Positions 37,070 to 41,084 of a DNA stretch of 64,000 nt are shown here, piece after piece. Position 1 is the stretch's first letter, and every line of letters begins with the position of its first letter. Source of the DNA: Methylocystis sp. H62 (GTDB taxonomy: Bacteria > Pseudomonadota > Alphaproteobacteria > Rhizobiales > Beijerinckiaceae). Position numbers and translations under genes: made by a program. The stretch is taken from positions 496,001 through 560,000 of the forward strand of contig NZ_JADNQZ010000058.1 in the NCBI RefSeq assembly GCF_015709515.1. Direction: 5' to 3'. The notes below the pieces were generated by a model. It was not told where the DNA came from. It worked only from the letters and a program-made list of their open reading frames with translations, and searched no databases.

Positions 37070-38182
37070 ATGGAAGATTGGCTGCACTTTCCCCAACCGG
37101 TCCCGGCGATCAGGCACCATGCGACCGAGGCGAACGCCCGGGCGGTGCGCAACTGGCTGTGGCTCGTCGCGGGGCTGGTCTTTTTGATGGTCATCGTCGG
37201 CGGCGCGACCCGGTTGACCGAATCGGGCCTATCGATCGTACAGTGGAAGCCCGTCACGGGCGTGCTGCCGCCGCTGTCCCAGCAGGAGTGGCAGGAGGCG
37301 TTCGATGCCTACAAGCAGATTCCGCAATACAGGGAACTGTTCCCGGACATGGATGTCGCCGGGTTCAAATATATTTACGCCTGGGAATGGGCGCATCGTC
37401 TTCTCGGACGCTTGATCGGCGTCGTTTTCGCTGTCCCGCTCATATGGTTTTGGGCGACCGGCCGCCTGCCGCGTTCGGCCAAGCCGAAGCTCGTCGGCAT
37501 TCTCGCGCTCGGGGCCCTACAGGGCGGCGTCGGCTGGTGGATGGTCGCATCCGGCCTCGTCAATCGCATCGAGGTGGCGCAGGAGCGCCTTGCGATCCAT
37601 TTGCTGCTCGCCGCGCTGATCTTCTCAGCCTGTTTATGGGTGGCCGGCGGCCTCGGACCGCGCGCCGCCTCTCTCGTGCATGGGGGCGCAGGTCGGCTCA
37701 AAGGGACCGCGCTGACGATCCTGGCTTTTGTGTTTCTGCAGATTTTCGTCGGCGGCCTTGTCGCGGGACTGCGGGCGGGACTCGTCAATAACACTTGGCC
37801 GCTGATGGACGGCGTCTTCATTCCTTCGGCCGACGTCTTGTGGCGATTGGAGCCGGTCTGGACCAATCTCGTCGACAACCCGGTCACCGTCCAATTCTTC
37901 CACCGCATGATCGCCTATCTGATCTTCGCTCTGGCGCTCGGGCATCTTCTGGATGCGTGGATGAATGCGGAAGGACGCGCGCGCCGCGGCGCCGTGATCC
38001 TGTTCGGCCATGTGCTCATGCAGATCGCGCTTGGCGTTGCGACATTGGTGCTGGTCCAGCCCCCCTTCGCCGGCGACCCGCATCTGGCGCTGGCGCTCGC
38101 GCATCAGGCGATCGGCATGGCGGTGTTGGGCGTCGCGACGCTGCAGGCGCGACGTCTTGTGCAAGACGTGATCACGAACTGA
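37070..38182 (+). CDS. ctaA: Haem A synthase (CtaA/COX15)
   Basis: 370 residues with eight hydrophobic segments. Four conserved histidines that bind or orient haem are visible in WEWAHRLLGRLIGV, RLAIHLLLAALIFS, VQFFHRMIAYLIF and ALAHQAIGMAVLG. Also typical: VGGATRLTESGLSIVQWKPV and NTWPLMDGVFIP. It oxidises the C8 methyl of haem O to make haem A for aa3 cytochrome oxidase in the inner membrane. It is 10 bases before the TIGR04222-like gene, so the three-gene cassette downstream may be co-transcribed with it. Confidence 0.95.
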   Translation: MEDWLHFPQPVPAIRHHATEANARAVRNWLWLVAGLVFLMVIVGGATRLTESGLSIVQWKPVTGVLPPLSQQEWQEAFDAYKQIPQYRELFPDMDVAGFKYIYAWEWAHRLLGRLIGVVFAVPLIWFWATGRLPRSAKPKLVGILALGALQGGVGWWMVASGLVNRIEVAQERLAIHLLLAALIFSACLWVAGGLGPRAASLVHGGAGRLKGTALTILAFVFLQIFVGGLVAGLRAGLVNNTWPLMDGVFIPSADVLWRLEPVWTNLVDNPVTVQFFHRMIAYLIFALALGHLLDAWMNAEGRARRGAVILFGHVLMQIALGVATLVLVQPPFAGDPHLALALAHQAIGMAVLGVATLQARRLVQDVITN

Positions 38183-38192
38183 GGCGGCTGGC

Positions 38193-39116
38193 GTGCAGAA
38201 CATTGCGATCCTTAATCTTCCCGGGCCTGAATTTCTCAACGTCTTCGGCCTCGTCGTCATCCTCGTGCTGGCGGCCACTTACCTTTGCATTCGGCTCGCG
38301 GATCGCACCGATCGCCGCGCGCCGCCGCCCGTGCCGCAGAACCCCGACGCGATGGAGGTCGCCTTCCTGCAGGGCGGCGTCAATCAGGTCATCCGAACGC
38401 TGATCTATGATCTTGCGCAGCGCGGCTTCGTCGTCCTCGCCGCGGAGGATCACGTGATTCCTGCAGACAAGCAGCCGGAGCCGGGCGAACTCAACGCCAT
38501 GGAGACGCGGCTGCTCGAAGCCGTGCAGGCCAAGCCGAAGGCGCATGCGCTGTTCGAAGATCGCGGCTTGCGGCGCTGGCTGCTGGAACAGCTCGCGCCG
38601 CTGCGCGCCAAACTCGCCGCGGAGGAGCTGATCAAGCCCAAGTCCGTGAAGGTTTGGCGCCGGCGCGCGCAGATCGGTGGAACGCTGATCATCGTCGGTC
38701 TGGCGCTTGCCAAGATCTATGTCGAATGGACGGCGGGCGCCGTGAATGTCGCCTATCTGGTCTTTCTCGCAGCTGCGTCGGTCGCGTCGCTTTTCGCGCT
38801 CGCCTATGTGCTGACCAGAACCCACGCGAGCCGTCGCGGCCACGCCTATCTTGACGCAATGCGGCTTGCCTATGGCGGCCGTCTGAAAGAGGCCGTCGGT
38901 CACATCGGATCGCCCGGACCCGAAGCGCGCGCGTTCCACGGCGCCGCGCTGTTTCTCATCGGCCTTTATGGATTCGCGCCGCTCAAGGGCACGACGGAGG
39001 CGATGTTCGCCGAAGCCTTCAGTCGCGGTTCCGGAAGCGATGGCTCCGATTGCGGAACAAGCTGCGGCGGCAGTTGCGGCGACGGCGGAGCGAGCGATGG
39101 TGGCGTCCGCGATTGA
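38193..39116 (+). CDS. TIGR04222-like membrane protein with C-terminal CxxxCxxxC tail, likely MNIO substrate
   Basis: 307 residues from a GTG at 38193 (gagg upstream). An N-terminal helix (FLNVFGLVVILVLAATYLCI), a soluble region (AFLQGGVNQVIRTLIYDLAQ, then VVLAAEDHVIPADKQPEPGE), two more helices (GGTLIIVGLALAKIYVEWTA, AYLVFLAAASVASLFALAYV), a helical part LAYGGRLKEAVGHIG, then a hydrophobic AALFLIGLYGF and a Gly/Ser/Cys tail with C287, C291, C295 (DCGTSCGGSCGDGG). TIGR04222 proteins have this plan with a Gly/Cys-rich end. The next gene, a DUF692 enzyme, overlaps it by 20 bases, so the Cys tail is a candidate modification site. The reaction is inferred. Confidence 0.75.
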   Translation: MQNIAILNLPGPEFLNVFGLVVILVLAATYLCIRLADRTDRRAPPPVPQNPDAMEVAFLQGGVNQVIRTLIYDLAQRGFVVLAAEDHVIPADKQPEPGELNAMETRLLEAVQAKPKAHALFEDRGLRRWLLEQLAPLRAKLAAEELIKPKSVKVWRRRAQIGGTLIIVGLALAKIYVEWTAGAVNVAYLVFLAAASVASLFALAYVLTRTHASRRGHAYLDAMRLAYGGRLKEAVGHIGSPGPEARAFHGAALFLIGLYGFAPLKGTTEAMFAEAFSRGSGSDGSDCGTSCGGSCGDGGASDGGVRD

Positions 39117-39939
39117 GGCGCCGCCCCTTGGGTCCGGACTCGGCTATCGTCCGCAGTTTCGCGCCGATCTCTTCGCCCGACGGGAGGATGTCGATTTTAT
39201 CGAGATCATCGCCGATCATTATCTCGACGCATCGAAAGAAAAGCTCGCTGAACTTGAGCTTTTAAGAGCGCATTTTCCGCTCGTCGCGCATGGTCTCGAT
39301 CTCTCGATCGGAAGCGCGGACGGCGTCGACTCATGCTATCTCGATAAAGTCGCCGCGCTGATCGAACGCATCGATCCGCCCTGGTGGAGCGAACATCTTT
39401 GCTTCACGCGCGCGGGCGGAATCAGCATCGGCCATCTTGCGTCCCTGCCCTTTACGCAGGAAGCGATCGACGTCGTCGCGCGCAATGTCGAAATTGTGCG
39501 CAGGCGCATCAAGACGCCGCTGATTTTGGAAAACATCACTTGCGTGGTGCGCATTCCAGGCGGCGAAATGGACGAGCCTGAATTTTTGTCGCGCACGCTC
39601 GACACGACCGGATGCGGTTGGCTGTGCGACGTCGCCAACATGCATGTGAATGCGACGAATTTCGGCGCCGATCTCGAACGCGACTTCGAGCGCTGGCCAT
39701 GGGACAGGCTCGTGCAAATCCACTACGCCGGCGGACGCGAGCGCGACGGCCTATTGATCGACAGCCATGACGCCGCGACGAGCGATGCGGTTTGGCGGCT
39801 CTATGAGCGCGTCATCGCCCGCGCGCCGGTCAAGGCGGTCATTCTCGAGCGTGACGAAAAAATGCCGCCGTTTGGCGAGCTCATCGATGAAGTGGCGCGC
39901 GCGCGACGCGCGCTCGTGGAGAACGGGCGATGGGGTTAG
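39097..39939 (+). CDS. DUF692 / multinuclear non-haem iron oxidase (MNIO) family enzyme
   Basis: 280 residues from the ATG at 39097 (ggag at 6 bases); earlier in-frame ATGs are deeper inside the previous gene. The TIM-barrel metal ligands of MNIO enzymes can be placed: His65 (VAHGLDLSIGS), Glu99 and His100 (WWSEHLCF), Glu145-Asn146 (LILENITC), Asp178/Asn181/His183 (LCDVANMHVNATNFG), His209 (VQIHYAGG), Asp222 and His224 (LLIDSHDA) and Glu251 (ILERDEKMPP). Members such as MbnB and TglH oxidise Cys residues of a peptide substrate with iron and O2. There is no methanobactin-type precursor here; the Cys-tailed protein just before is the likely substrate. Confidence 0.85.
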   Translation: MVASAIEAPPLGSGLGYRPQFRADLFARREDVDFIEIIADHYLDASKEKLAELELLRAHFPLVAHGLDLSIGSADGVDSCYLDKVAALIERIDPPWWSEHLCFTRAGGISIGHLASLPFTQEAIDVVARNVEIVRRRIKTPLILENITCVVRIPGGEMDEPEFLSRTLDTTGCGWLCDVANMHVNATNFGADLERDFERWPWDRLVQIHYAGGRERDGLLIDSHDAATSDAVWRLYERVIARAPVKAVILERDEKMPPFGELIDEVARARRALVENGRWG

Positions 39940-40508
39940 CCCAGACGCAGGCGCTGCTCGCGCGCCTGTTCACCGACGATGATCTGCGGCGGGAATTCTT
40001 CGAAGCGCCGATCGCCGTGGCGATGCGTTTCGGCTTGAGCATGCATGACACCGAGCGCCTCGCCGGAATCGACAGGCGCGAAACGGAAGTCTTTGCTCAG
40101 AGCCTGATCGGCAAACGCGCGCTTTATGCGCGCAGGGCGTTGCCGCTCACAGCGCGCGCATTGGGCGATCGATTCGATGCGCTTTTCCGGCAGGCGATCC
40201 GCGGCGCTGCGCGAGAGGCGACAAGTCGCTCGGACGCTGCGGCGCTCACTGCATTTCTCGAAACCCGTGTCGCAAAGTGCGAATTGGAGCCGCGCTGGGT
40301 CGCCGACCTCGCGCGTTTCGAATTGGCCTTCATCGATGTCGGGGGTTCCGGCGCGACGTTTTTTTTTCGAGCGTTTGATTTCGATGTCGCAACGGTCGCC
40401 CACGCTCTCGCCAGGGGCGAAGAGATCAGCGCCGTTCGCCGAAAAACATTTGGCGTTTGGGTGCGCGCGCCTGGAGGCAGGCTGCGCTGGCGGCTATTTC
40501 AGCCCTAG
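39930..40508 (+). CDS. MNIO partner protein (DUF2063 / SCO6045-like)
   Basis: 192 residues. It starts inside the MNIO gene (10-base overlap, ggag at 8 bases). The helical N-terminal part (TQALLARLFTDDDLRREFFE, then AMRFGLSMHDTERLAGIDRR, SLIGKRALYARRALPLTARA, LGDRFDALFRQAIRGAA) follows the pattern of partner proteins that accompany DUF692 enzymes and help recognise the substrate. The C-terminal part (ARFELAFIDVGGSGATFFFR, AFDFDVATVAHALARGEE) is a small beta domain. The role in substrate recognition is known for other MNIO partners and inferred here. It converges with fliJ (4-base overlap). Confidence 0.75.
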   Translation: MGLAQTQALLARLFTDDDLRREFFEAPIAVAMRFGLSMHDTERLAGIDRRETEVFAQSLIGKRALYARRALPLTARALGDRFDALFRQAIRGAAREATSRSDAAALTAFLETRVAKCELEPRWVADLARFELAFIDVGGSGATFFFRAFDFDVATVAHALARGEEISAVRRKTFGVWVRAPGGRLRWRLFQP

Positions 40509-40909
40509 ACCCTGCGCAAAACTTCCGGCATTTCGGCGTGGCGCCGCTCGGCGACGACATCGACCATGCGCTCGGCTCCGCGATCCCGCGCTTCTTGGCT
40601 TTGCGCCTTGGCGAAGTCTTCGCTGGCCTCTTTGAACTGCGCTTCGGCTTCTTCGAGTTGGCCGCGCAGTTCCGCGATCGACGCAAGGATGTTGTCGCGT
40701 CGCGTGCGCGCCGCCCGCGCATAAGTCGGATAGGCGAAATGATTGGGATCGTCGATGTTGGCGCGCCGCTCTTCCTGACCGATTTCACGGTCGAGCTCAT
40801 TGGCCATGCGCGTGAATTCGCCGATCATTGCATTCAATTGAACGACGCGCCGGCGTTTTTCCTCGGCCTGGAACCGTTTGAGACGGACAAGCGTATCCCG
40901 CGACTTCAT
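40505..40909 (-). CDS. fliJ: Flagellar export chaperone FliJ
   Basis: 134 residues from the ATG at 40909 (MKSRDTLVRLKRFQAEEKRR; ggag upstream). An ATG at 40930 is possible. The protein is almost wholly alpha-helical coiled coil, with the Rhizobiales FliJ pattern NAMIGEFTRMANELDREIGQ, ANIDDPNHFAYPTYARAART and RRDNILASIAELRGQLEEAE. FliJ works with the ATPase FliI in the flagellar type III export apparatus. fliI, normally its partner, is not next to it, and no other flagellar gene is in the window. Confidence 0.85.
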   Translation of the reverse strand: MKSRDTLVRLKRFQAEEKRRRVVQLNAMIGEFTRMANELDREIGQEERRANIDDPNHFAYPTYARAARTRRDNILASIAELRGQLEEAEAQFKEASEDFAKAQSQEARDRGAERMVDVVAERRHAEMPEVLRRV

Positions 40910-41084
40910 GCGACAAGCTCCATTACGCAACTTATGCGAAACAAATCCTTAACTCCGCGAGACAAGGCTCAATATGCCCTGTGGAAGTTGCTCGTTTGTT
41001 ACCGAAATCGAATTTTTGAATTCTTCGTCCCTGTGTGTCTTCGGCGCACTATCTCAAGCAAGGGGCGCTTTGGAGGCTCAAGCT

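Follow-up and report, generated by a model that had tools for sequence, protein, structure and literature searches.

What does a cysteine-bearing tail on an inner-membrane protein do in front of the genes for a multinuclear non-heme iron-dependent oxidative enzyme (MNIO) and its partner? The question is raised by a locus in Methylocystis sp. H62, lying in a window of 64,000 nucleotides (contig NZ_JADNQZ010000058.1, positions 496,001 to 560,000; coordinates below are those of the window), where ctaA, the gene of a TIGR04222 membrane protein, an MNIO gene and a partner gene follow each other in this order, all on the plus strand. From comparisons of sequences and predicted structures we consider it probable that the MNIO and a TglI-like partner oxidise cysteines in the tail of the membrane protein at the inner (cytosolic) face of the membrane. 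An earlier note on this DNA had described an MNIO cassette with the tail as substrate and a role with copper or cytochrome oxidase; the cassette and the tail as likely substrate stand, the latter backed by the way in which tail and enzyme occur or are missing together, by the conservation of the motif and by the TglI-like partner, while the copper or oxidase role does not.

The haem A synthase gene ctaA (37070..38182; PF02628, CtaA, 332.5 bits) ends 10 bases before the gene of the 307 aa TIGR04222 inner-membrane protein (38193..39116, GTG start). The latter overlaps the gene of the 280 aa MNIO (39097..39939) by 20 bases, and this one overlaps the gene of the 192 aa partner (39930..40508) by 10 bases, so that the cassette has no space for a further gene encoding a peptide. 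These coordinates and distances came out on re-reading as they had first been described, and so did C287, C291 and C295, read directly as ...DCGTSCGGSCGDGG... in a disordered Gly/Ser/Cys tail (residues 279-307, 39027..39113), where they make up the motif C287-G-T-S-C291-G-G-S-C295-G (39051-39080). Profile scores likewise uphold the two family assignments, with 79.7 bits against a cut-off of 43 for the NCBIfam domain TIGR04222 and 278.5 bits against a cut-off of 25 for PF05114 (MbnB_TglH_ChrH, the former DUF692). The 4.54-Mb genome holds a single TIGR04222 gene, that of the cassette.

The AlphaFold2 model of the TIGR04222 protein has an overall predicted local distance difference test score (pLDDT) of 80.3. 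Together with hydropathy it points to three likely transmembrane helices, within helices 11-36, 150-181 and 187-208; a fourth, weakly hydrophobic one is modelled at 243-259. For residues 279-307 the pLDDT is below 50. The protein has the build of TIGR04222 membrane proteins, with several transmembrane helices and a low-complexity C-terminal tail. A Foldseek comparison of the model with the PDB gave no significant match (best E 2.3), and tblastn against plasmids gave no match for the protein.

Within the genus, tail and enzyme are found together or not at all. Our genus sample comprised 61 genomes, that of Methylocystis sp. H62 and 60 relatives, 31 of which hold TIGR04222; these are 31 of the 37 Methylocystis genomes and 0 of the 24 from other families in the order. 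A wider sample added above-cut-off TIGR04222 proteins in two genomes from a different genus within the family (G558 and G634), both of the long form and without a local MNIO. The genus counts rest on the 30 of the 31 TIGR04222-bearing genomes for which the locus sequence was read; the named loci L068-L084 often belong to the same genomes and were not added. MNIO and partner stand behind the TIGR04222 gene in 25 of the 30 loci and are absent in the other five. The tail C-G-x-S-C-x-x-[SA]-C-G is present in 24 of the 25 MNIO-bearing loci, the exception being L020 (1423-3153), where the end of the TIGR04222 gene is lost, the frame runs into the MNIO and the Cys tail is gone, a break that may be genuine or due to faulty assembly. 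The same disturbed end is seen in L073 (3110-4840), probably from the same metagenome-assembled genome (MAG). In all five MNIO-free loci the protein has 284 aa and stops at what would be the start of the tail, with 0 or 1 Cys there, and the convergent gene known from the right border of the cassette follows directly; in two genomes without TIGR04222 (G006 and G034) the convergent gene directly follows ctaA. No MNIO of the cassette clade was found elsewhere in the five MNIO-free genomes, four of which gave no match and one (G009) a match at 34% identity. Masked bases in the TIGR04222 gene of G027 make its tail unreadable, and no MNIO match was found there. Relatives lacking the tail, which the earlier note had named as evidence against its idea, do exist in these five loci, but they fit the substrate idea because the same five are without MNIO and partner.

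Further, the Cys motif is conserved amid a tail whose other positions change more quickly than the protein body. In the 24 intact Methylocystis genes C287, G288, S290, C291, C295 and G296 are fixed. We counted pairwise codon differences over all 24 aligned genes, with no choice by pattern, omitting L020 for its frame break, L003 as a duplicate of L005, and the five enzyme-free loci. The three Cys codons gave 44 synonymous and 0 nonsynonymous differences; variation in these codons is slight (TGT in 2 of the 24 genes, at C295 only), hence the small synonymous count. For the ten motif codons the counts were 591 and 284 (nonsynonymous share 0.32), with changes at 289 and 292-294. It is the contrast of this share with those of the 16 codons before the motif (592 and 1576, share 0.73), the 11 codons after it (373 and 811, share 0.68) and the body (17493 and 17162, share 0.50) that marks the motif as conserved within a fast tail, though pairwise counts are not independent.

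The enzyme has the residues expected of its superfamily. H65, H100, E145, D178, N181, H209, D222, H224 and E251 are invariant in nine aligned MNIOs, and work on MbnB and TglH marks these His, Asp, Glu and Asn positions as metal ligands; of the complete ligand set proposed earlier, the invariance of the nine positions is thus borne out, and their roles are presumed. The protein aligns to 3bww and to the TglH and MbnB chains, and no signal peptide is apparent by eye. Its best equivalog match is BufB (NF050167), at 239.5 bits below the cut-off of 310, while MbnB (TIGR04159) scores 53.6 bits against a cut-off of 325. The genome holds four PF05114 matches, the cassette MNIO being one. Two others, L001 and L002, are BufB-type with 376 and 368.9 bits, above the BufB cut-off, and are 35% identical in the MNIO alignment; the fourth, L004 (G000:C56:173224-173967), is a clear MbnB with 445 bits.

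The partner has no match in a Pfam profile search and two weak ones in NCBIfam, the better being Os1348/NHLP with 24.9 bits against a cut-off of 40. Its AlphaFold2 model, built with 28 sequences, has a pLDDT of 91.6, and the best Foldseek match is 8hi7_A, the TglI of TglHI (E 1.7e-4, probability 1.00, TMq 0.62, root mean square deviation 5.6). This is the sole PDB match at E 0.001 or better; NGO1945 (3dee) is not among the 50 Foldseek matches listed. In Antoine et al. 2025 (PMC12452194), partners of PME-type 2 are related to TglI/NGO1945 and lack the DUF2063 signature. The partner gene here directly follows the MNIO and has no DUF2063 Pfam signature, and its predicted structure is related to TglI through 8hi7_A, hence the modelled fold agrees with the published class.

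Searching for TIGR04222 and DUF692 gene pairs, as had been proposed, we found them across the genus and in several phyla. A scan with the cassette MNIO clade, which is biased towards the MNIO of the window, gave 34 loci. Of these, 17 are Methylocystis-like, 15 more have TIGR04222, and two (L100 and L101) have an MNIO and no adjacent TIGR04222. In the 15 non-Methylocystis loci TIGR04222 lies directly upstream of the MNIO (in L098 it is broken into two frames and scores below cut-off), and a partner homologue lies directly downstream in all 15. They are labelled as Hyphomicrobiales, Cyanobacteria, Verrucomicrobia, 'Akkermansia' (doubtful), Pirellula, another Planctomycetota, Uabimicrobium, an 'Actinomycetota' MAG, Chthonomonas, Myxococcales, Cytophagaceae and one unnamed bacterium. 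The phylum to which the 'Actinomycetota' label of L094 had pointed (that of G798) is probably Armatimonadota instead, since its genomes also yield the tails of L093 and L095 (Chthonomonas), and Actinomycetota, which dominate the published set, are hardly sampled here. MNIO loci found via TIGR04222 alone carry the partner or part of it in 10 of 12 cases, which brings the partner to 25 of the 27 sampled MNIO and TIGR04222 loci outside the genus, 15 of the 27 being from the biased scan. One of these MNIOs (L147) is fused in frame to some 57 residues from the helical part of the partner; a 583-aa frame in L097 that looked like an MNIO-partner fusion was rejected, as it is two frames with a short overlap.

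The three proteins have correlated distance matrices, with r of 0.76-0.84 over 28 loci and 0.74-0.87 over the 22 loci without Methylocystis, and in a permutation test of the 22 loci 0 of 2000 permutations reached as high a value for each protein pair. GC-rich genomes often have genes that overlap, and those of the cassette might be thought accidental neighbours without joint function, an explanation for which we found no support. The order is not a chance association, because it is met again, on the same strand, within the genus and in several other phyla, and 15 of 28 loci, including 9 from outside the genus, keep the 10-base overlap of MNIO and partner; we regard accidental neighbourhood as practically negligible.

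Some of these loci have features of their own. In the cyanobacterial cassettes L087 (3136-6002) and L089 genes for a YqiJ-like membrane protein and a flotillin-like protein follow the partner (Pfam was run on L087). Paralogous TIGR04222 pairs occur in one Uabimicrobium genome (L092/L112) and in tandem in L094, the copy at the MNIO locus having the Cys tail and the other a Cys-free tail. Eight distinct loci (L088, L097, L147, L148, L150, L151, L165 and L175) have a gene for a polymerase-beta-like nucleotidyltransferase just upstream of TIGR04222, with or without an MNIO in the flanks; of three tested only that of L147 matched Pfam Polbeta, below cut-off.

Several observations weigh against the tail as substrate of the MNIO. 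Two of the five MNIO-free genomes are incomplete, the completeness of the five being 99, 98, 100, 81 and 73%. The enzyme-free set is one side of one branch in the TIGR04222 tree, and the CtaA tree allows one or two splits for it, so that the joint loss or gain of tail and enzyme would represent one event, perhaps two. Outside the genus we compared tails and MNIO for 63 TIGR04222 proteins, MNIO being judged in the flanks (about 1.3 kb; shorter at some loci, such as the 104 bases of L059); seven incomplete or open-ended matches, Methylocystis loci, below-cut-off loci and proteins with identical last 60 residues were dropped. At least two tail Cys are found in 27 of the 28 proteins at MNIO loci and also in 32 of the 35 without MNIO in the flanks, 21 of the 32 having a longer open frame before the TIGR04222 domain. 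A genome-wide search of 30 of these 32 genomes (G483 and G1489 were left out) showed that 22 of the 30 have no MNIO anywhere, and in the Pseudomonadota samples outside the genus an MNIO stands at 0 of 11 above-cut-off loci (L040, L051-L060).

With MNIO-free Cys-tailed genomes this common, the general rule that a Cys tail means an MNIO was rejected; the tail must have some use, or other maturation, without MNIO. Hence one may suppose that the Cys tail works unmodified, in a structural, redox or metal-binding role, and that the MNIO modifies another substrate, for which L100, with MNIO and partner and no adjacent TIGR04222, could be quoted as well. For the cassette described here we find this unlikely, since motif and MNIO are present or absent together in Methylocystis, no other precursor has space within the cassette, and the distances of the three proteins are correlated across phyla. 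The long TIGR04222 form of L113-L120 and similar loci has an additional stretch at the N-terminus besides its Cys-rich tail, and the genomes that carry it lack any MNIO; L113 and L054 gave no Pfam domain.

At L057 (250-2226) and L129 (1159-3391) a radical SAM/SPASM gene, not an MNIO, directly follows a Cys-tailed TIGR04222. The two enzymes are alike (blastp E 1e-8 or better), and their nearest models are SbtM, ACGX and NirJ-type, all below cut-off. Their enzyme class, that of radical SAM/SPASM peptide maturases, has a fold unrelated to that of MNIO and is not seen at the Methylocystis loci. Judged by their placement, they might be another kind of maturase for such tails. Unrelated maturases of two kinds next to tails of one family would speak for modification of the tail, though two loci are few.

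The remaining neighbours speak about the role suggested from ctaA. CtaA is encoded at 29 of the 30 Methylocystis loci (L031 ends before ctaA) and at 17 of 17 in the MNIO-clade scan, and with ctaA ending 10 bases upstream the cassette might serve copper supply or cytochrome oxidase assembly. However, ctaA remains beside TIGR04222 where tail, MNIO and partner are gone, it is present in three genomes where TIGR04222 was not found, and it is in no locus outside the genus (flanks of 1.5 to 4 kb). The inference of a copper or oxidase role is unsupported because we saw the adjacency in Methylocystis only, where it does not depend on the enzyme; we reject it, and its probability seems to us very low. 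At the right border of the cassette lies a convergent gene (40505..40930, minus strand) without Pfam match, presumably resembling FliJ.

Where would the tail be modified? We used 67 of 90 TIGR04222 proteins with less than 70% identity to judge the topology. On the side that an N-out/C-in arrangement puts inside, Lys and Arg make up 0.174 per residue, against 0.081 on the outside, and the sign holds in 61 of the 67. The Lys/Arg value after the third transmembrane helix is 0.253 against 0.143 in the loop between the second and third (widened to the conserved Lys174), which is C-in for 60 of 67. The fourth segment, taken at its best 19 residues, stays below a Kyte-Doolittle (KD) value of 1.6 in 53 of 67 proteins, and in the cyanobacterial cassettes L087, L089 and L091 it is at about 0.4 with acidic residues. 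Unless the helix at 243-259 crosses the membrane, these sequence features make a cytosolic tail somewhat the better guess, and a cytosolic tail could be reached by the enzyme pair without export.

This runs opposite to the published view in PMC12452194, whose topology prediction puts the low-complexity tails in the periplasm; on that view the tail would be modified before or during insertion and, anchored in the membrane, chelate metal in the periplasm in the manner of a bufferin. Points in favour of the periplasm come from our own counts too: the weak fourth helix exists, 14 of the 67 proteins reach KD 1.6 there, and the charge test is not unanimous, as equal 16-residue windows round the second and third transmembrane helices give C-in for 41 of 67, the opposite for 15 and equality for 11. 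The charges mostly favour the cytosol, and set against them and the low hydropathy of the fourth segment a periplasmic tail appears unlikely enough for us to rank it second, without being far-fetched.

Among the closest described systems, TglHI works on a small carrier peptide, at its C-terminal Cys. TglH-TglI of the 3-thiaglutamate pathway (PDB 8hi7, 8hci) resembles the cassette in having an MNIO with a separate partner, on which our partner model is TglI-like, and differs in that the putative substrate here is a membrane protein with three Cys inside its tail. In bufferin cassettes (BufA-BufB-BufC) a Cys-rich substrate gene likewise precedes the MNIO gene and BufB is the best equivalog, but the cassette MNIO is below the BufB cut-off, its precursor has no signal peptide and its partner no DUF2063. 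Methanobactin MbnB/MbnC shares the enzyme superfamily, from whose MbnB model the cassette MNIO is far removed by score. The nearest relatives are the clusters of Antoine et al. 2025, who report more than 3,500 TIGR04222 proteins, mostly from Actinomycetota, often but not always linked to MNIO, with one third of the TIGR04222 genomes lacking an MNIO, PME-type 2 partners predicted in at least 10% of the clusters, and the C-terminal Cys-rich segments of a subset proposed as MNIO substrates. Those clusters are alike in gene families, in the Gly/Ser/Cys C-terminal tail, in a precursor without signal peptide and in a partner without DUF2063; different here are Methylocystis as host, the short CX3CX3C tail, the ctaA neighbour and the C-in charge pattern. 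The main text of PMC12452194 does not contain 'ctaA' or 'SPASM', and 'radical SAM' appears twice, both in the reference list. Hence 'little-described system', as the locus had been called, goes too far, the association of TIGR04222, MNIO and PME-type 2 being already in print there. In full-text searches of the literature TIGR04222 came up together with DUF692 in that paper alone, and by itself also in PMC5183585. Our literature search found nothing on MNIO in Methylocystis, and for a membrane-protein RiPP (ribosomally synthesised and post-translationally modified peptide) with multinuclear non-heme iron nothing since 2024 beyond that paper. New here are the co-occurrence of tail and enzyme, the conservation of the motif, the partner fold, the recurrence of the cassette and the topology argument.

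We suggest that together the three genes probably make up a RiPP-like modification cassette tethered to the membrane. In it the MNIO, with its partner bound, would oxidise one or more of C287, C291 and C295 in the flexible tail, and the TIGR04222 protein would be substrate and anchor at once; with three transmembrane helices in N-out/C-in orientation the tail would be in the cytosol and modified without export. The product would be modified Cys ligands at the inner membrane face, most likely metal-binding, a prediction that we hold with some reserve. Further, we speculate, more tentatively still, that TIGR04222 proteins are cytosol-facing anchored substrates, the tails of which are finished by exchangeable unrelated maturases (MNIO with a TglI-like partner, radical SAM/SPASM, and in many cases none), giving a modified thiol or metal-ligand cluster on the inner membrane face, unlike the exported bufferins and methanobactins.

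MNIO enzymes are known for the modification of small peptides, and a membrane protein as substrate would, if true, widen the range of their targets and functions. Methylocystis offers a natural experiment, in which tail and enzyme come and go together beside an unchanged neighbour. With its short three-Cys tail, and in a culturable, non-pathogenic host that also has methanobactin- and bufferin-type MNIOs, the cassette makes the role of a TIGR04222-linked MNIO directly testable. The topology, if we read it right, would shift the place where the product works, and it decides whether enzyme and substrate can meet without export.

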